Shown here: in pieces, positions 5,752 to 40,948 of the stretch
Layout: each line of letters starts with the position of its first letter
How positions within the stretch are numbered: position 1 is the first letter of the stretch
Assembly: GCF_018598185.1 (NCBI RefSeq)
Contig: NZ_JAHESC010000053.1
Span: 1 to 50,344 of the forward strand
Reading direction: 5' to 3'
From: Dawidia soli
GTDB taxonomy: Bacteria; Bacteroidota; Bacteroidia; Cytophagales; Cyclobacteriaceae
DNA: 50,344 nt
Translations under genes and position numbers: made by a program
Notes under the pieces: generated by a model
What the model was told of the DNA's origin: nothing
Databases searched by the model: none
The model's input: the letters and a program-made list of their open reading frames with translations, nothing else

Positions 5752-6636
5752 TTAATAAGCTTTGCCCTTTATGTCGTTGGTAAACGTCTCCATCCCCTTC
5801 CTGTCTTGTAAGGTAACATACACCTGCTTCCCATCCTTACCCCCAAACACGAGGTTACTGCACTTCTTCCCTTTCAACGCCACTTCGCGAATAACTTTCC
5901 CTTGCGGCGACAGTACCACCACGACGCCTTTGCCATAACGTGTGGCATACAGGTTGCCCTTCTTATCACACTTCATTCCGTCAAACCCAAAGTCGGGAAA
6001 CTCCGCAAAGAGTCGTTTATTGGAAATATTGCCTTGCTTGTCAACATCAAACGCCCATATCTTTTTTTGAACGCTTTCATTTACATAAAGCGTCTTTTCG
6101 TCGGGGCTCAGCTCGATGCCATTGGTGGTGCCCATCTTGTCGGTGAGCAGTACGGGCTTACCACCCTTGTCTATACGCCAGAGCTTACCGGTGCTTTCCT
6201 TCCAGTTGGGGTCGGAGGCGAAGAGCTGGTCGCGGCGGTTGATGCAAATGTCGTTGGGCTGGTTGAAGCCGTCGGTGTGTGCATAGACACGCACGGCTTT
6301 GGTTTTCATATCCACCTGCAACACGTTGTGGCCGCTGAAGTCGGCGAGGTACATGGTGCCGTCGCGGCCAAACTGGATGGCGTTGGCGGTGCTGCCCTCG
6401 GGCAATTTTACAAAGAGCGATACCTCGCCGGCAGGTGATACCTGGCCGATGGTGCCGTCTTGCTGAAAGTTTACCACATACAGCTGGCCGGCAGCGTCAA
6501 AGGCAGGACCTTCGATGTTTTCGGTAAAGAGATTCTCGGCGGTGAAATCGCGCGATTGAAACAGATCAGAGGATTGCTGTGCCTGGCATGTGCTAAACGC
6601 ACACAGTGCCAGCGTCAGCGCGTAGGTCGTTCGCAT
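5752..6636 (-). CDS. SMP-30/gluconolactonase/LRE-like secreted beta-propeller
   Basis: The product is 294 residues with a signal peptide (MRTTYALTLALCAFSTCQAQ), so it is exported, probably to the periplasm. The remainder is a six-bladed propeller with the SMP-30 family metal-ligand signature: Glu in NIEGPAFD, Asn in QPNDICIN, a second Asn in TTNGIELSPDEKTLYV, and Asp in FDGMKCD. Family members are calcium- or zinc-dependent lactonases (gluconolactonase, regucalcin) or related strictosidine-synthase-like hydrolases. The substrate cannot be deduced. The gene stands alone, convergent with recO, with no sugar-oxidation neighbour. Confidence 0.85.
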   Translation of the reverse strand: MRTTYALTLALCAFSTCQAQQSSDLFQSRDFTAENLFTENIEGPAFDAAGQLYVVNFQQDGTIGQVSPAGEVSLFVKLPEGSTANAIQFGRDGTMYLADFSGHNVLQVDMKTKAVRVYAHTDGFNQPNDICINRRDQLFASDPNWKESTGKLWRIDKGGKPVLLTDKMGTTNGIELSPDEKTLYVNESVQKKIWAFDVDKQGNISNKRLFAEFPDFGFDGMKCDKKGNLYATRYGKGVVVVLSPQGKVIREVALKGKKCSNLVFGGKDGKQVYVTLQDRKGMETFTNDIKGKAY

Positions 6637-6698
6637 GGGCAGTGGTTTCTTTAGTCTATGACAATTTTACACAATACGCGCCAATGTCACCTAACCGT

Positions 6699-7328
6699 TC
6701 ATAAATACTGTTCGATATCACCCAATCCCTGGCGGATGATCGTCATCGGGTCCGTGGTACAATCCACGACGGTGGAGGGTACGTTGCCACCGATGCCGCC
6801 GTCGATGACCACGTCCACCTGGTGCTTGAAGTCCTCGTATATCTCTTCCGGATCGGTGGTATACGCCTTGATGGTATCGTCGTCTTTGATGGACGTCGTG
6901 ATAAGCGGATTCTGAAGTTGTTCTACCAGCATGCGCGGAATGTTATGGTCCGGGATGCGGATGCCTACGGTCTTTTTGTTCACATCCAATATTTTGGGCA
7001 CGCGGCTGCTCGATTCCAGGATAAACGTATAGGGTCCGGGCAGCGCCCTTTTGAGGATCTTAAATACCGGGGTGTCAATGCGCTTGGCAAACTCAGAGAT
7101 ATGGCTGAGATCGTTGCAGATGAACGAAAGATCCAGCTTGTGCGGTTTAATATTCATGATCTGGCACAGCCGTTCGATCGATTTCCGGTTCATCAGGTCG
7201 CACCCGATGCCATAGATCGTGTCCGTGGGGTAGATAATGATGCCCCCCTGTTTTAATACCGCTACAACCTGTTCAATTTTACGGGGTTCGGGGTTTCGGG
7301 GGTGAATGCGTACTAATTCGGCTGCCAT
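6699..7328 (-). CDS. YciO/YrdC/Sua5 family protein, YciO-type
   Basis: The product has 209 residues forming a single YrdC-like domain, without the C-terminal Sua5 domain. [15 protein letters not shown] and [18 protein letters not shown] are typical, and [15 protein letters not shown] resembles E. coli YciO more than TsaC. TsaC/Sua5 proteins make L-threonylcarbamoyl-AMP from threonine, bicarbonate and ATP for the t6A37 tRNA modification. YciO proteins share the fold but their role in t6A is less secure. A near-consensus -7 box lies on the minus strand just upstream (TATCTTTC). The gene diverges from mltG, ~70 bp apart. Confidence 0.85.
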
Positions 7329-35250: not shown

Positions 35251-35367
35251 ACTTGTTTCTTTTCGATTGTAAAAATGCCCTTTTTCCGGAAAAAACCGCA
35301 TCCCGCTGACGGAACAGCCAACAGACAATAAAAAAGACAAAAATATCCTTTATTCATCAACCCGTTG

Positions 35368-35375
35368 TATCTTTG
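35368..35375 (+). promoter_or_regulatory. Candidate promoter -7 box for the Rrf2-cbb3 cluster
   Basis: TATCTTTG matches TAnnTTTG, 33 bp before the Rrf2 ATG. It may drive the regulator and, by read-through, the genes downstream. The 46 bp between the Rrf2 stop and ccoN (35844-35889) are AT-rich (taaaggacaaaagagtctta) and could hold a second promoter or operator. I cannot define a convincing palindrome. Confidence 0.5.
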
Positions 35376-35408
35376 CCCCGTTCAACGTCATAACAACCAC
35401 TTAACGGC

Positions 35409-35843
35409 ATGTTCTCAAAGGCTTGTGAATACGGCATACGCGCGATGATCTACATCGCCCAACGATCGCGGCAAGGAGAGCGCGTCGGGTTGAAAGACAT
35501 TGCCCAGGGTATCGACTCGCCCGAGGCATTCATGGCCAAGATCATGCAGGCGCTTAGCCGGCAGGGCCTGGTACAATCCGTCAAAGGTCCGCATGGGGGC
35601 TTTTATATGGACACACAAGCCTCGAAAATAACATTGGCCCAGGTAGTGCGCGCCATTGATGGCGACCATCTCTTTACGGGTTGCGGCCTCGGCCTGACCG
35701 AATGCAACGAAAAGAAACCCTGCCCCATACACGATGAGTTCAAGCTCATCCGCAACAAGATCCGATCACTTTTAGAAACTACCCAGGTGGGCGAGTTCAA
35801 TGAGCTCCTGGAAAAGGGAGTTCTGCACCTGAAACGGATCTAA
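35409..35843 (+). CDS. Rrf2-family regulator with three cysteines (NsrR/IscR-like)
   Basis: The product is 144 residues, with a winged-helix N-terminus (FSKACEYGIRAMIYIA, SPEAFMAKIMQALSRQGLVQSVKGPHGGFYM). Three cysteines at 92, 99 and 105 in GCGLGLTECN and KKPCPIH match the Fe-S-binding pattern of IscR and NsrR. NsrR senses nitric oxide through its cluster and represses NO-detoxification genes. IscR senses cluster status. The downstream genes, especially a RIC protein and a truncated globin, favour an NsrR-like role. That is inference from context. The gene is the first of the same-strand series ending at 40948, with 46 bp to ccoN. Confidence 0.93.
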   Translation: MFSKACEYGIRAMIYIAQRSRQGERVGLKDIAQGIDSPEAFMAKIMQALSRQGLVQSVKGPHGGFYMDTQASKITLAQVVRAIDGDHLFTGCGLGLTECNEKKPCPIHDEFKLIRNKIRSLLETTQVGEFNELLEKGVLHLKRI

Positions 35844-35889
35844 AAAATTTACACTAATAAAGGACAAAAGAGTCTTAATATATACGGTT

Positions 35890-37671
35890 ATGAATCTTGT
35901 ACGATCGCTTCTCACCTGCTTCGTTTTGCCGATGGTCACCGCATGGCCACGGGCAGGCTATGCACAAACCGCGGCTGAACAAAATGCTCCCCTGCTGACA
36001 CAGCCCGGCATACTCATTACACTGGTGCTGATCCTGGTCCCGCTGTTGGCCGCGTTTATCTTTATGGTACTGCAGGTACGCCGCACGTTGCTTCGTCTGA
36101 AATGGCAGCAGCAACCCGCGGTGCAGACCGAAGCCATCGACTTCCCCCACCCGCAGCGTAACCCTGCCGTGCCGTACCAGCTCAGCGGCCGTGAACTGGC
36201 CGGCCAGTACGCGCCAGACGACAGCCGGGGCATCATTCAACACGCCAGCAACGATCACGCGATACCGTTTGTAGCCGAAAAGAAAAAAGCACAGGCCAGA
36301 CCGGCGATCGATCCCAAGCTCACACACCTCATCCTGTGGTACCTGGGCACCGCTACGTTCTGGCTCGTCCTCGGCACGACGGTAGGCGAATACCTCGGCA
36401 TCAAACTCGTATCGCCCGATGCCGACACCGTGCCGTGGCTCAGCTTCGGCCGCCTGCGGCCCGTACACACCAACGCGGTGTTCTGGGGCTGGTCTTCGCT
36501 CGCCATGCTCGGCCTGGCATATTACGTCGTGCCCAAAGTGAGCAATACCACGATCGCAAGCCTGCGCCAGGGCTGGCAGACGCTCATCCTCATCAACACG
36601 GCCGTCGTGCTCGGCAGCCTGTGTCTGATGAATGGCATCAACAACGCCGGTGGCGAATACCGCGAATATGTGTGGCCCGTCATGGCCCTCTTCGGCCTGG
36701 GCCTGATCATTACTCTTATCAATTTCCTGCGCACCGTCGCACGACGCACCACAACAGAGATATACATCTCCAACTGGTACATCCTGTCCGCCATCATCTT
36801 TACCCTCGTCATCAGCGTCATTGCATACTGGCCCACGTGGCAAAACGGCCTGGGTGAAACGATCGTACAAGGATATTATATGCACCAGGGCGTGGGCATG
36901 TGGTTCATGCTCTTCAACCTGGGACTGGTATATTACTTCCTGCCGCAGCAGCTGAACAAACCGATATACTCCTATAGCCTGGGCATCCTGGCATTCTGGG
37001 CGCAGATCCTGTTCTATACCCTCATCGGCACGCATCACTTTGTGTTCAGCTCGATACCCTGGTGGTTGCAAACCGTGGCCATCGTCGGCAGCATGGGCAT
37101 GCTGATACCGGTCATTGCCGGCACGACCAACTTCCTCATGACCCTAAAAGGTGGCTGGAACAAGATTGCCAGCAGCTATACGCTGCCGTTTTATGTAACA
37201 GGCATCATCTTTTACTTCACCGGCTCCTTTCAGGGAACCGCCGAGGCCTTCCGGTTCACCAACCTGCTGTGGCACTTTACCGACTTTACGGTAGCCCATT
37301 CGCACCTGACCATGTACGGCATCATTGCCTTTTTACTGTGGGCCAGCATCTATGCGCTGGTGCCACGCCTCACCGGCCACGAGCCGCCGCAGTGGCTGGT
37401 AGGCGCACACTTCTGGCTGGCATTCCTGGGACTGATGTTTTATACCATCCCGCTCATGATCGGTGGTACGCTGCGCGGCCTGATGTGGATGGAAGGTAAA
37501 CCCTTTATCGAAAGCGTCGTGCTCATGGCTCCGTATTGGTTGTGGCGCGCCATTGGCGGCTCGCTCATGTGGCTGTCACATATCCTCTTTGCCTATAATT
37601 TTTATCGCATGGTGGTTGGCGTACGCGCCGCCCGGCCCGCAGCAACCCCTATACGCGAAGTTCTGGCTTAA
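35890..37671 (+). CDS. ccoN: cbb3-type heme-copper oxidase catalytic subunit I with extra N-terminal segment
   Basis: The product has 593 residues, against ~475 for a plain CcoN. Residues 1-140 are an addition: a signal-like helix, a second membrane helix (ILITLVLILVPLLAAFIFMV) and a polar linker. The core has FGRLRPVHTNA (His193, low-spin heme b), YYMHQGVG (His332, CuB), FYTLIGTHHF (Tyr376 six residues before His382-His383, the spacing of the cross-linked Tyr in cbb3) and TDFTVAHSH (His470 and His472, hemes b3 and b). Position +4 from His332 is Gly, whereas NO reductases carry the FeB-binding Glu there. This points to oxygen reduction. The next gene, 12 bp on, encodes the cytochrome c partner. 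Confidence 0.88.
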   Translation: MNLVRSLLTCFVLPMVTAWPRAGYAQTAAEQNAPLLTQPGILITLVLILVPLLAAFIFMVLQVRRTLLRLKWQQQPAVQTEAIDFPHPQRNPAVPYQLSGRELAGQYAPDDSRGIIQHASNDHAIPFVAEKKKAQARPAIDPKLTHLILWYLGTATFWLVLGTTVGEYLGIKLVSPDADTVPWLSFGRLRPVHTNAVFWGWSSLAMLGLAYYVVPKVSNTTIASLRQGWQTLILINTAVVLGSLCLMNGINNAGGEYREYVWPVMALFGLGLIITLINFLRTVARRTTTEIYISNWYILSAIIFTLVISVIAYWPTWQNGLGETIVQGYYMHQGVGMWFMLFNLGLVYYFLPQQLNKPIYSYSLGILAFWAQILFYTLIGTHHFVFSSIPWWLQTVAIVGSMGMLIPVIAGTTNFLMTLKGGWNKIASSYTLPFYVTGIIFYFTGSFQGTAEAFRFTNLLWHFTDFTVAHSHLTMYGIIAFLLWASIYALVPRLTGHEPPQWLVGAHFWLAFLGLMFYTIPLMIGGTLRGLMWMEGKPFIESVVLMAPYWLWRAIGGSLMWLSHILFAYNFYRMVVGVRAARPAATPIREVLA

Positions 37672-37683
37672 TCTTTTATCGAT

Positions 37684-38712
37684 ATGAAACTCTTCCGCAA
37701 TCACACATACTTATATACCACAGCCTTTCTGTTCTTTACGGGCCTGTCCCTGGTCGTCGCAATCCTGCCGGCATTATATAACCAGGAGAACAACGCGCCG
37801 CTGCCGGGAACCGAGCCCTTAAGCGACGACGCGCTGGCCGGCAAGCATGTCTTTATTGCCAACGGCTGTGTGGCCTGTCACTCCCAACAGGTGCGCAACG
37901 TTGCCATGGACAACGTCTGGGGTTCACGTCCCAACGTTGCCGCCGATTACGCGCACAACACACGCATGCATTGGTGGATGAACACCGCCACTCTCATGGG
38001 CACCGAACGCACGGGTCCCGACCTGACCAACATCGGCACCCGCCTGCCCAGCCTCGAGTGGCACTTGTTACACCTCTACAACCCGCGCGCGGTCGTAGAA
38101 GAATCGGTGATGCCCGCATACCCGTGGATGTTTCAGATCAAGGAGGATATTGAAGAAGGTGACAAGGTGGTAAATGTACCTGCGGAGTTTATGCGCGACC
38201 AACACGGTACGGTCGTGGCCACGCGCGAAGCGCTGCAGCTGGTTGCCTACTTGCAATCGCTGCAACAGGCACCGCTGCCCGACGGCACGGCAGCGCCCGC
38301 CTTCCTGTATAGATCGCAAGCTCCCGCTGCTGCACCGGCCAATGTATCAGCCGATGCCGCCGCTACGGAAGCGATAGCAGACGGAGCCGCCCTCTATGCC
38401 GCGAACTGCCAGGCCTGCCACCAGGCCACAGGCGCGGGTCTCAAAGGTGCGTTCCCGCCGCTGAAGGGAAGCGCCATCGTGCAGGACGACGACCCGGAGG
38501 TATTGATCGACATCATCCTGCACGGCTATAATGCCCGCGAAGAATATGGAGAGATGCCCGCCATCGGCACCATCAATCACCTGAAGCCCGAAGAGATCGC
38601 GGCCATCATCCACCACGAGCGCACCAGCTGGGGCAACCAGGCGCGCGAAGTATCGGTGGCGGAAGTAAAAGATATCATCGCCATGCTGGAATCAAAAAAG
38701 AATAATCCATAA
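37684..38712 (+). CDS. CcoO-CcoP-like fusion, diheme cytochrome c subunit
   Basis: The product is 342 residues. An N-terminal membrane anchor (YTTAFLFFTGLSLVVAILPA) leads to a CcoO-like domain with CVACHSQQVR (Cys62, Cys65, His66), GTERTGPDLTNIG and Met143 in SVMPAYPWMF. An Ala/Pro linker (~200-230) joins a second cytochrome c domain of CcoP type with CQACH (Cys242, Cys245, His246) and Met291 in EYGEMPAIG. Standard cbb3 oxidases have CcoO (one heme) plus CcoP (two hemes). Here one chain holds both functions with two hemes in total. It should pass electrons from soluble or membrane cytochromes to the catalytic subunit encoded just upstream. Confidence 0.87.
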   Translation: MKLFRNHTYLYTTAFLFFTGLSLVVAILPALYNQENNAPLPGTEPLSDDALAGKHVFIANGCVACHSQQVRNVAMDNVWGSRPNVAADYAHNTRMHWWMNTATLMGTERTGPDLTNIGTRLPSLEWHLLHLYNPRAVVEESVMPAYPWMFQIKEDIEEGDKVVNVPAEFMRDQHGTVVATREALQLVAYLQSLQQAPLPDGTAAPAFLYRSQAPAAAPANVSADAAATEAIADGAALYAANCQACHQATGAGLKGAFPPLKGSAIVQDDDPEVLIDIILHGYNAREEYGEMPAIGTINHLKPEEIAAIIHHERTSWGNQAREVSVAEVKDIIAMLESKKNNP

Positions 38713-38716
38713 GAAC

Positions 38717-38983
38717 ATGAAGAAGATCATCATCACGCCGATCGCCGTCGCGCTGTACAGCGCCTCGTTCGCCTGCGACGTGTGTAAGAAACAACAACCC
38801 AAGGTGCTGCGCGGCATTACGCACGGCGCCGGGCCACAAAGCAACTGGGACTATGTCATCGTCGTCGCGATCGCGGCCGTAGTACTCGTCACGCTCTTTT
38901 ACTCCGTCAAGTGGCTGATCAAACCTGGCGAGCAACAAGCAGACCATATCAAGCATAGTATCTTAACACACGACACCGTATGA
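38717..38983 (+). CDS. Small membrane protein with a CxxC pair
   Basis: The product is 88 residues of unrecognised family. A signal-like N-terminus (MKKIIITPIAVALYSASFAC) ends at Cys20, which with Cys23 forms CDVC. A conserved-looking GITHGAGPQSNWDY and one membrane helix (VIVVAIAAVVLVTLFYSVKW, ~47-66) follow. Cys20 could be a lipidated or mature N-terminal residue, or the CxxC could bind copper or act in redox chemistry during oxidase assembly. No CcoS or CcoH similarity is evident. It starts 4 bp after the cytochrome gene and its last codons overlap the next start by 4 bp, so it belongs to this operon. Confidence 0.78.
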   Translation: MKKIIITPIAVALYSASFACDVCKKQQPKVLRGITHGAGPQSNWDYVIVVAIAAVVLVTLFYSVKWLIKPGEQQADHIKHSILTHDTV

Positions 38984-39387
38984 GCGAGAAAAGCAAAGTA
39001 CGTCTCTTCCTCGACGACGACACCGCTCCCCTGGGCGACTTTTACACGCCCATTCATTTTGAGCTAGACACGCGCCAGCTGGTAGACGGCGAGCATGTAC
39101 TCAGGATCGTGGGCCAGGACCCATCGGGTAAAGAAGGTATCCGCACAATACCCTTCACCGTCCGCAACGGTCCTGCCATTAGCATTGAAGGCCTCAAGGC
39201 ACATGACGTCGTAGACGGTGTGCTGCCGCTCATGATCAACGCCTACGGCAAAGGCGATCAGCACAAGTTCCTCATCGAGGGCAGTGAAACGCCCCGCAGC
39301 GCGCCCGCGTGGATCTGGGCCGCCATCGTACTCTTTGCCGGCTGGGCCGCGTATTATTTTATCACTTCGCTACAAGTCACCTTATAG
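38980..39387 (+). CDS. Beta-rich domain with C-terminal membrane anchor, oxidase-associated hypothetical
   Basis: The product is 135 residues. The first ~100 look like an Ig-like or cytochrome-associated beta-sandwich (FELDTRQLVDGEHVLRIVGQD, RTIPFTVRNGPAISIEGL), and a single membrane helix lies at ~109-130 (APAWIWAAIVLFAGWAAYYF). There is no signal peptide. The fold could therefore be cytoplasmic and tail-anchored, or exported by the helix acting as a reverse anchor. Family unknown to me. The position within the cbb3 operon, overlapping the previous gene by 4 bp, suggests an accessory or assembly subunit of the oxidase, in the place where FixH/CcoH-like genes often occur. Confidence 0.75.
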   Translation: MSEKSKVRLFLDDDTAPLGDFYTPIHFELDTRQLVDGEHVLRIVGQDPSGKEGIRTIPFTVRNGPAISIEGLKAHDVVDGVLPLMINAYGKGDQHKFLIEGSETPRSAPAWIWAAIVLFAGWAAYYFITSLQVTL

Positions 39388-39409
39388 CTGCTACCACAAT
39401 TGCAAAACC

Positions 39410-39814
39410 ATGAAGAAAGACATTGAGAATATAGACGACATAAAAGATCTCGTCGACGCCTTTTATGACAAAGTACGGGTAGACTCGTTGCTGGGGCCAG
39501 TCTTTCATGCACGTATACACGACTGGCAGCCACACCTCGAGATCATGTACCGCTTTTGGAATGCAGCGCTGTTTGGCGTGCGTGGGTATGTAGGAAATCC
39601 TTTTGCCAGGCACGCTGCACTTCCATTAGAGGCGGAACACTTCGAACAATGGATCAACTTATTCTACGCTACCGTTGACGACCGGTTCCAGGGCGTGATT
39701 GCCGACGAGGCCAAGCGCCGCGCCATGATCATGGCCCATACCTTTTACGGCCGCATCCACGCGGGCAAAGAGAAGACCCTGCACGACCTGCCGCCGATCC
39801 GCAAAGCACCGTGA
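39410..39814 (+). CDS. Group III truncated hemoglobin
   Basis: The product is 134 residues, a 2-on-2 globin of the group III type (cf. Campylobacter Ctb). DLVDAFYDKVRVDSLLGPVF is the N-terminal helix, FWNAALFG is the central motif, and RHAALPLEAEHFEQWINLF contains the presumed proximal His68. Group III proteins bind O2 and NO tightly and are linked to NO or peroxide stress and microaerobic respiration. The ATG at 39410 was chosen because it begins the family alignment. The frame is open upstream only by overlapping the preceding gene. Confidence 0.92.
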   Translation: MKKDIENIDDIKDLVDAFYDKVRVDSLLGPVFHARIHDWQPHLEIMYRFWNAALFGVRGYVGNPFARHAALPLEAEHFEQWINLFYATVDDRFQGVIADEAKRRAMIMAHTFYGRIHAGKEKTLHDLPPIRKAP

Positions 39815-39850
39815 GAAAGAAATAACATACGAATTTAAACCACCAGCCAC

Positions 39851-40585
39851 ATGGAAACGCTAACAACCCTCACCCTGGGTGAGATCGTCAAAAAACAATA
39901 CCGCGCCGCCGAAGTGTTTGAAAAATTCGGATTGGACTTTTGCTGCATGGGCAGCCAGACATTGGAAGAAGCCTGCCGCAACAGTCAACACGACCCCACC
40001 GAGGTGCTCGTCGCCCTGCAAGCCCTCGAAACCGACGGCGGCGACAGCGTAAACTTCGACGCCTGGCCCCTCGACTTACTCGCCGATTATATTTACCAAC
40101 GTCACCACCACTACGTGGAAGAGAAGACACCCATCATCCAGGGTTACCTCGACAAGATCTGCGCCGTGCACGGCAACCGTCACCCGGAGCTATATGAGAT
40201 CAACCGCATCTTCAAAGAAACGTCGGGTGCGCTGGCGGTACACATGAAGAAAGAAGAGCTCATGTTGTTCCCGTATATCAAACGCCTCGTAAAAGCGGGT
40301 GAAACCCACGAGCCCGTAACGTCATCGATCTTTGGCAGCGTCAGCACCCCCATCCATGCCATGGAAGCCGACCACCTGGACGAAGGCCAGCAACTTCAGA
40401 AGATGGCCGCCCTCAGCAACGACTACACCCCGCCGGCTGATGCCTGCTCTACCTACACCGTTACCTATAAAATGTTAAAAGATTATGAAAAGGATATGCA
40501 CCTGCACATCCACCTGGAAAACAACATTCTGTTCGCCAAGGCCGTTCAACTCGAAGAAGCGCTGAACGGGCCTCGCTCCGCCTGA
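39851..40585 (+). CDS. RIC/ScdA-type di-iron Fe-S cluster repair protein
   Basis: The product is 244 residues. The N-terminal ScdA_N domain carries LGEIVKKQYRAAEVFEKFGLDFCCMG with Cys31-Cys32. The hemerythrin-like domain follows with His/Glu iron ligands in YIYQRHHHYVEEKTP, HMKKEELMLFPYI, EADHLDEG and HLHIHLENNILF. RIC proteins (YtfE, ScdA, DnrN) repair clusters damaged by nitric oxide or peroxide and are classic targets of NsrR. Their presence here is the best contextual evidence that the cluster responds to NO. The ferredoxin gene starts 9 bp after the stop. Confidence 0.95.
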   Translation: METLTTLTLGEIVKKQYRAAEVFEKFGLDFCCMGSQTLEEACRNSQHDPTEVLVALQALETDGGDSVNFDAWPLDLLADYIYQRHHHYVEEKTPIIQGYLDKICAVHGNRHPELYEINRIFKETSGALAVHMKKEELMLFPYIKRLVKAGETHEPVTSSIFGSVSTPIHAMEADHLDEGQQLQKMAALSNDYTPPADACSTYTVTYKMLKDYEKDMHLHIHLENNILFAKAVQLEEALNGPRSA

Positions 40586-40594
40586 TCCATAACC

Positions 40595-40948
40595 ATGTCG
40601 ATACATCGAGCTAATATCACTGTAACGGTACTGTACGAAGGACGCGAACACGTCCTTCGTACCTATACCCACGAATACCGCAGCTTGATGGCGCTGATCT
40701 ACGATAAGCTCTACGTGGTAAACTTCGGCGATTGCAAGGGCATCGGCCGTTGCGGCACCTGCCACGTACGCCTGCCGGAAGATGCCGAAGAGACACTGCT
40801 GATACGCTCCGGCAACGAACCTAACACACTGGGTAAAATGACGGGCGTACTGCCTACCAGCCGGCTGTCATGCCACATGCCGATTGACGAACGCCTCCAC
40901 GCACTGCGGGTAGAGATCATGCAGGACGAGGAGCCCGGACTATATTGA
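40595..40948 (+). CDS. 2Fe-2S ferredoxin-like protein
   Basis: The product is 117 residues. The cluster ligands Cys47, Cys53 and Cys56 (DCKGIGRCGTCHV) and Cys93 (SRLSCHMP) fit a plant- or adrenodoxin-type fold with CX5CX2C spacing. It probably gives electrons to a neighbour, for example the di-iron repair protein or the globin. The reductase is not in the window. It is the last gene of the cluster and lies tail-to-tail with prmC, 8 bp between stops, with no visible terminator. Confidence 0.9.
   Translation: MSIHRANITVTVLYEGREHVLRTYTHEYRSLMALIYDKLYVVNFGDCKGIGRCGTCHVRLPEDAEETLLIRSGNEPNTLGKMTGVLPTSRLSCHMPIDERLHALRVEIMQDEEPGLY

Follow-up and report, generated by a model that had tools for sequence, protein, structure and literature searches.

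What is a cbb3-like oxidase doing among genes for defence against nitric oxide (NO)? The question is raised by an operon in a 50,344-nucleotide stretch of DNA from Dawidia soli (contig NZ_JAHESC010000053.1, the whole of which is called the window here), in which eight + strand open reading frames (ORFs) at 35409-40948 encode an Rrf2-family regulator, a CcoN-like catalytic subunit (coxN), a CcoO-like cytochrome c (coxO), two small membrane proteins referred to as the orphans (smallA and orphB), a truncated globin, the iron-sulfur (Fe-S) repair protein RIC and a 2Fe-2S ferredoxin. We read it as an Rrf2-repressed, NO-inducible operon that would supply a poison-tolerant terminal oxidase together with NO defence, and we put the probability of this reading at roughly 0.55. 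For the enzyme itself, a tolerant oxidase is the most likely mechanism and an independent NO reductase is the alternative.

A conserved oxidase core with NO-linked neighbours

The 135-amino acid orphB product served as the marker for picking loci, and its presence in the picked loci is therefore given. It was found in 15 of 146 genomes, the D. soli genome counted; a weak match in G042 (E-value 8e-4) was left out, and two genomes with two copies bring the number of loci besides the window to 15. The order coxN-coxO-smallA-orphB is identical in all 15, which makes the arrangement non-random, and the same loci have the globin gene next in 13 cases, an Rrf2 gene in 14 and RIC in six. A scan of species genomes returned 355 orphB relatives among 409 pattern matches, and the best 80 of the 355 were kept and inspected (the named loci). 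Their organisms are Bacteroidota, including Chitinophaga, Flavobacterium, Pontibacter, Dyadobacter, Emticicia, Pedobacter and Segetibacter, and the counts of family ORFs across the 80 loci (coxN 79, coxO 77, smallA 76, Rrf2 54, globin 46, ferredoxin 30, RIC 29) indicate that the oxidase and the two orphans are the core and the other genes are optional. The original prediction, made from the window alone, had proposed synteny across Bacteroidota as a check, and the synteny is conserved, both in the 15 related loci and in most of the best 80. Its set of eight genes holds for the oxidase and orphan core but not for the globin, RIC and ferredoxin genes, which are frequent companions only. When 59 genomes were searched independently with ccoN, the matches comprised canonical copies, two contig-end fragments and three low-scoring sequences in G000, G091 and G139, all three of them marker genomes. 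Because that search met the variant type in marker genomes only (3/3), the orphans can be said to accompany the variant oxidase; their association with it is as predicted, but their standing as dedicated accessory subunits is conjectural.

To describe the neighbourhood we defined an NO-linked set consisting of RIC, globin, Hmp, hemerythrin and DUF2249, and applied the same queries within a 6-kb radius to coxN loci and to canonical cbb3 loci. NO-linked genes lie near coxN in 15/15 loci of related genomes and 55/78 named loci. After removal of two duplicates they are present in 68 of 91 distinct loci, compared with one of 20 canonical cbb3 loci, where the gene is an Hmp (Fisher 6e-9, a value not to be taken literally with related loci, and the queries were drawn from the coxN set, with some bias in its favour). 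RIC, globin or Rrf2 occurs within 6 kb of none of the 20 canonical loci.

The CcoN-like enzyme belongs to a separate clade

The best solved relatives of the coxN product are cbb3 CcoN chains (profile E-values 1e-79 to 5e-66), and NorB is reached at 6.6e-12 (4xyd_A). We compared 94 CcoN-like rows, of which two are short, with 30 rows of cbb3 from related genomes and three solved chains, using P. stutzeri residue numbering. The cross-link tyrosine (Tyr-II, Tyr251) and the metal-ligand histidines typical of C-type enzymes are all present: Tyr251, His207, His257 and His258 are kept in 93/94 rows (one gap), His345 and His347 in 94/94, and His60 in 92 (two gaps). Judged by these residues, the coxN product is a C-family heme-copper enzyme. 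Three other C-type positions have changed throughout the clade. Glu323 is replaced by Gln in 94/94 rows, and Ser240 by Gly and His243 by Ala in 93/94 each (one gap each), whereas Glu323, Ser240 and His243 are found in all 30 canonical rows of related genomes and in all three solved chains; Tyr237 and Tyr317 are kept. Ser240 and His243 are K-path positions. Glu323 forms a hydrogen bond to the proximal histidine of heme b3, where a Gln would change the tightness of O2 or NO binding. In total, 47 alignment columns, five of them gaps, are diagnostic between the variant and canonical sets, and the coxN product scores 245 bits against the NCBIfam ccoN equivalog cut-off of 583.

A tree of 45 rows without aa3 sequences sets the variant CcoN clade apart from canonical cbb3 with support 100/97. 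A previous tree, which comprised 76 rows and used aa3 as outgroup, gave the clade 58/85 and 52% of 200 bootstrap trees; its branches were long and its support for the clade weak, and the 45-row tree replaced it. Both trees carry a warning that long branches meet, and support in the 45-row tree is 13/0 for the branch that would order the variant clade, a group of proteobacterial proteins and canonical cbb3, which makes the deep placement of the variant clade provisional. The enzyme, an unusual cbb3 oxidase in the original prediction, thus departs from ordinary cbb3 in its clade and at three residues. That this is an ordinary cbb3 oxidase, with NO genes adjacent by chance, would agree with its COX1 and FixO domains but is very improbable beside a synteny conserved across families, the separate clade, the diagnostic columns and the two small proteins alongside; on the diagnostic residues and the tree we reject ordinary cbb3 identity.

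The subunit composition differs as well. There is no CcoP gene among the eight operon genes, to which the search for CcoP was confined, and one CcoP-like cytochrome domain is fused to the CcoO-like subunit, with two CxxCH motifs in 90/93 CcoO-like homologues. In coxN products of about 700 amino acids or more (L075, L076 and L077), the N-terminal extension seems to hold a hydrophobic segment and charged loop twice in tandem; the window protein has a single copy.

Oxidase or NO reductase?

Could the enzyme instead be chiefly an NO reductase, derived from the cbb3 branch separately from cNOR and qNOR, that turns NO into N2O at a Tyr-bearing heme b3-CuB site with cytoplasmic proton uptake weakened or lost? 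We consider this unlikely, although it deserves to be weighed. The abundance of NO-linked genes in the neighbourhood and the replacement of Ser240, His243 and Glu323 across the clade speak for it. So do the reduction of NO to N2O by the P. stutzeri cbb3 enzyme (PMC8780969) and the bifunctional cbb3 suggested for SAR11 (PMC12816887). The D. soli genome itself has NosZ, and NirK, qNOR or a further COX1-family protein was not found in it at the thresholds used. The motifs of NO reductases argue in the other direction. These are H-X-Arom-X-E and H-H-X-Arom-Arom-X17-E (PMC3084760); both are present in 6/6 qNOR sequences and neither in the window protein, and the second is found in 0/94 variant rows. 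The first occurs somewhere in 5/94 variant rows and also in 13/30 rows of canonical CcoN, and by itself it has little discriminating value. Tyr251, moreover, is kept wherever the alignment has a residue at that position. On the motifs we reject membership of cNOR/qNOR (NorB).

In a survey of the order, covering 291 genomes and 22 with the marker (one weak match dropped), and with p-values uncorrected for relatedness, qNOR is present in 6/22 marker genomes versus 22/291 overall (p 0.003), NosZ in 9/22 versus 54/291 (p 0.0095), NirK in 3/22 versus 12/291 (p 0.053) and Hmp in 7/22 versus 29/291 (p 0.003). Carriers of the marker are thus enriched for NO and N2O genes, but the presence of a qNOR in six of them counts against the NO reductase reading. 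At the threshold used, NirK was not found in 19 of the 22, so the operon is not simply a part of denitrification. A NirS search was silent in the controls too and carries no information. Nor does the variant stand in for a missing NOR, a possibility that we discarded: four of 12 NirK genomes are without qNOR, and the marker is in none of those four. One genome, G242, holds qNOR, NirK, Hmp, two cupin-like genes, Rrf2, RIC, globin and the oxidase within about 16 kb. The existence of a sub-group of loci with sulfide-linked and cytochrome bd genes, described below, is a further argument against an NO reductase. A more elaborate version, in which a new kind of C-family NO reductase would have given up O2 for NO separately from cNOR/qNOR, with its His-Tyr site kept, Glu323 and part of the proton path lost, and two dedicated subunits and an Rrf2 switch of its own, seems to us slightly less likely again.

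The Rrf2 regulator and its candidate operator

The first gene of the operon encodes a member of the Rrf2 superfamily (Pfam 105 bits), and its C-x6-C-x5-C-x2-H motif is kept in 75/75 Rrf2 proteins of related loci, which were found by similarity to the window protein and include two loci counted twice. The three-Cys regulator that had been predicted is confirmed in this respect, and it probably carries an Fe-S cluster, as the conserved cysteines would allow. NsrR as its model fares less well: the Rrf2 domain and Cys motif agree, but the protein falls below the equivalog cut-offs of both NsrR and IscR (68.6 versus 207.55 bits for the latter).

Upstream regions of these loci share a 26-bp palindrome, AATAAAAGA-N8-TCTTTTATT, which to our knowledge is not a known operator sequence elsewhere. 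Scored with a consensus derived from the same sequences, it is present at >=14/18 (at least 14 of 18 positions) in 61/161 upstream regions, compared with 0-6 in 20 dinucleotide shuffles. A spacer of 8 gave the most matches, and other spacers match too because the upstream regions are AT-rich. Both regulatory regions singled out in the original prediction, 35251-35408 and 35844-35889, hold a conserved copy, at 35329-35354 and, in weaker form, at 35856-35881. The palindrome is found in 43/65 loci with Rrf2 and 4/26 without, a comparison in which each Rrf2-bearing locus has two upstream regions to score. TAnnTTTG, a Bacteroidota-type -7 promoter element, starts 10-16 bp downstream in 32 of the 61 strong sites and overlaps the site in seven. 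The palindrome would thus occupy the place expected of an upstream promoter element, and this position suggests a local repressor that would cover that element. In the 7.48-Mb genome of D. soli, a search with the lineage pattern at <=3 mismatches found no operator copy besides 35329-35354, although weaker sites, such as 35856-35881, are missed by it. Scans for sigma-70 promoters and terminators did no better than shuffles.

A proposed poison-tolerant oxidase under Rrf2 control

How might the operon work? The Cys-rich and probably Fe-S-bearing Rrf2 protein would repress its own promoter, and perhaps also the oxidase promoter, through the 26-bp palindrome, as the anatomy of the site suggests, and NO attack on the cluster would lift the repression, by analogy with NsrR. 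The cell would then make a cytochrome-c-fed C-family heme-copper enzyme in which the altered proximal and proton-path region may change the chemistry, and would produce smallA and orphB alongside as putative subunits or assembly factors. This enzyme most likely sustains O2 respiration while NO or similar poisons block the other two heme-copper oxidases of the cell, and the globin, RIC and ferredoxin, from what is known of their families, would handle NO and electrons and repair clusters. Canonical cbb3 enzymes of Vibrio cholerae and Rhodobacter sphaeroides are strongly inhibited by NO (PMC9266656). In Pseudomonas aeruginosa, cyanide induces CcoN4 under the control of MpaR, which is encoded next to it (PMC10790758); with its own regulator, CcoN4 provides a precedent for a poison-linked C-family oxidase. 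The reading is also favoured by the conserved core, the NO-linked neighbours, the Rrf2 cysteine motif, the palindrome and its link to Rrf2, the gene-rich NO locus of G242, the enrichment of marker genomes for qNOR, NosZ and Hmp, the oxidase-type Tyr and six His without a second NOR motif, and the two additional heme-copper oxidases of the D. soli genome.

Several points weigh against this reading. NO tolerance is not a property that can be read from sequence, and O2 reduction might suffer from the loss of Ser240, His243 and Glu323. On the regulatory side, the Rrf2 protein scores 47.4 bits against an NsrR cut-off of 182, 26 of the 91 distinct loci are without Rrf2, the second palindrome of the window matches at 13/18 only, the consensus was scored on the sequences that supplied it, and a spacer of 6 also matches often (46/161). 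When the coxN upstreams alone are scored (duplicates included), those with and without Rrf2 have the palindrome in 42/67 and 7/26 at >=13, 22/67 and 4/26 at >=14, and 7/67 and 4/26 at >=15. The link to Rrf2 fades with strictness, which means that the strong sites are mostly before rrf2 and makes the case for control of the oxidase promoter weaker. Lastly, no gene of the NO-linked set was found at 23 of the 78 named loci.

Ten of those 23 have an SQR-like, rhodanese or YgaP-TM gene, which suggests a link to sulfide, and four of the ten (Flavobacterium) also have cydA; Rrf2 is within 6 kb of none of them. Four other loci among the 23 do have Rrf2. The control set includes a YgaP-TM gene at 1/20 canonical loci. 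The oxidase was predicted to be co-regulated with NO binding and cluster repair, a theme that is partly supported by its NO-linked neighbours but has to be qualified for a sub-group that has sulfide and cytochrome bd genes instead. The sub-group points to poison tolerance more generally, and its ten loci fit an oxidase that tolerates several poisons. It might instead belong to an oxidase for low oxygen or sulfide, around which NO genes cluster for ecological reasons, microaerobic niches holding both NO and sulfide, with an Rrf2 protein that senses O2, iron or redox state. Rrf2 proteins do sense iron and redox state as well, and the ten loci lack both Rrf2 and NO-linked genes within 6 kb. Yet canonical cbb3, also a low-oxygen enzyme, has no RIC, globin or Rrf2 in its vicinity and a single Hmp, and the operator goes with Rrf2. 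We therefore judge this explanation improbable, more so than either form of the NO reductase, and retain the poison-tolerant oxidase. The sulfide-type loci are L078, L087, L090, L091, L092, L093, L104, L114, L116 and L148, and the four from Flavobacterium have cydAB.

Relation to known systems

The variant resembles canonical cbb3 CcoNOP in its C-family sequence, six histidines, Tyr251-type tyrosine and CcoO-type cytochrome c. Unlike CcoNOP, it forms a separate clade with Glu323Gln, Ser240Gly and His243Ala, has no CcoP gene in the operon but a second c heme domain on CcoO, and comes with an N-terminal extension, two new small proteins and an NO-linked locus. With cNOR/qNOR it shares the distant kinship to the NorB chain and the NO context, but lacks the NOR motifs and has the tyrosine.

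A further parallel may be seen in proteobacterial CcoN-like proteins with Gln323 (Azoarcus KH32C, Paraburkholderia, C. metallidurans, two Sinorhizobium and Paracoccus plasmids), of which seven were examined among 392 records with a match. Six of the seven have Gln323 and, at position 243, Gly and not His (loci L184, L185, L186, L187, L189 and L190). In contrast to the variant they keep Ser240, and the neighbours in three annotated loci are SCO, a separate cytochrome c, MsrAB and a P-type ATPase. A single clade of the variant and the proteobacterial Gln323 proteins is neither rejected nor demonstrated (AU p 0.58).

The P. aeruginosa CcoN4-MpaR pair likewise joins a special CcoN that responds to a respiratory poison with a neighbouring regulator and a palindrome, but there the regulator is GntR-type, the poison is cyanide and CcoN4 is an orphan subunit, as opposed to the whole enzyme of a separate clade found here (PMC10790758). 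The regulator shares the Rrf2 domain and a Cys motif with NsrR, IscR and RsrR, and its nearest solved chains include the Rrf2 regulators 6y45 and 6hsd, IscR, CymR and NsrR; it differs in its cysteine and histidine spacing and in its equivalog scores. A figure legend of PMC5492636, citing Muntyan 2015, names an "unknown group" among heme-copper enzymes that is set apart from Glu-bearing cbb3 and may overlap with the variant clade. No description of the eight-gene set was found in open-licence PMC papers among the matches listed, as judged by titles and the starts of abstracts.

Operon layout and other features

The ORF coordinates and family scans agree with the prediction of eight same-strand genes that begin with Rrf2 and end with ferredoxin (Table 1). 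The gaps measure 46, 12, 4, -4, 22, 36 and 9 bp, within the predicted range of -4 to 46 bp, although one of them had been given as 37 bp and is 36 bp.

Table 1. Genes of the operon and regulatory features upstream of them in the window
Feature	Position	Strand	Basis
Operator-like palindrome before rrf2, TAAAAAAGACAAAAATATCCTTTATT, 15/18 consensus positions	35329..35354	+	Upstream comparison
TAnnTTTG (TATCTTTG), presumed Bacteroidota-type -7 element, 13 bp after palindrome	35368..35375	+	Sequence
Rrf2-family regulator	35409..35843	+	Pfam Rrf2 105 bits; C92-x6-C99-x5-C105-x2-H108
Weaker copy of the operator-like palindrome in the rrf2-coxN gap, AATAAAGGACAAAAGAGTCTTAATAT, 13/18	35856..35881	+	Upstream comparison
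coxN, CcoN-like catalytic subunit of the variant clade; N-terminal extension with extra hydrophobic segment	35890..37671	+	Pfam COX1 277 bits
coxO, membrane cytochrome c of CcoO type with an additional fused cytochrome c domain; two CxxCH	37684..38712	+	FixO and cytochrome c domain
smallA, 88 amino acids; hydrophobic stretch at the N terminus, CxxC and His36 both conserved, single transmembrane (TM) segment	38717..38983	+	Sequence
orphB, 135 amino acids; beta-rich part and C-terminal TM helix	38980..39387	+	Sequence; model mean pLDDT 60
Truncated globin, group III type	39410..39814	+	Bacterial globin domain; best PDB relative 2ig3
RIC (ScdA/YtfE-type) di-iron Fe-S repair protein	39851..40585	+	TIGR03652 equivalog
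2Fe-2S ferredoxin, C-x5-C-x2-C...C, adrenodoxin/putidaredoxin-like	40595..40948	+	Chain matches, four Cys

RIC scores 228.7 bits against the TIGR03652 cut-off of 204.7 and belongs to that family. The globin (Bac_globin domain, 33.7 versus 21 bits) has as its nearest solved structure 2ig3, a "Group III truncated haemoglobin" (E-value 1.7e-13), and is assigned to group III. The ferredoxin reaches 16.9 bits with Fer2, below the Pfam cut-off of 21, but has the cysteine pattern and matches adrenodoxin and putidaredoxin chains. Neither smallA nor orphB has a family above cut-off in Pfam or NCBIfam. For orphB a PDB match with an E-value <0.001 was not found, the best being fibronectin-III-like at 0.049 from a poor model, and its predicted fold can at most be called beta-sandwich-like.

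Elsewhere in its 7.48 Mb, the D. soli genome has genes for NosZ and for two heme-copper oxidases besides this one, along with two more genes that bear ScdA_N; NirK, qNOR and Hmp were not found at the thresholds used, nor was a COX1-family protein beyond the known heme-copper oxidases. Its nos cluster (C27:105000-124500, L192) contains NosZ, a cytochrome c, a RIC-type gene and a 394-amino acid membrane ORF without a Pfam or NCBIfam match, and a further ScdA_N match lies at C27:126504-126659.

Two marker copies are present in genomes G040, G144 and G306. In Parachryseolinea silvisoli (L021 of G002, 6120-6850) the RIC match is in two overlapping pieces, and the gene may be frameshifted in the assembly; globin translations with an internal stop at L031:7206-7598 and L034:8004-8465 may reflect gene decay or a wrong start. 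A 146-amino acid membrane protein without a Pfam or NCBIfam match recurs at L083:10800-11237 and 16 other loci, many of NO type. A 422-amino acid truncated membrane protein resembling heme-copper oxidases is encoded at L106:4649-5914 and six other loci. Its PF00115 match (E-value 1e-5) does not reach the cut-off, and its usual neighbours are genes for DUF1858/DUF2249 and Fe-S assembly (PF01883); a similar truncated COX1-like gene lies near 3/20 canonical cbb3 loci.

Implications

Genome surveys commonly take a CcoN match to mean high-affinity O2 respiration and the absence of NorB to mean an inability to respire NO. A widespread clade of cbb3 lookalikes in NO loci unsettles both habits, and the candidate operator offers a handle on NO regulation in Bacteroidota. 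If the enzyme is a tolerant oxidase, the NO tolerance of a heme-copper oxidase becomes testable at three named residues. If it is an NO reductase, an unrecognised enzyme hidden in Bacteroidota under the label "cbb3 oxidase" would add to the sources of N2O, and many bacteria that are scored as being without an NO reductase would make this gas.

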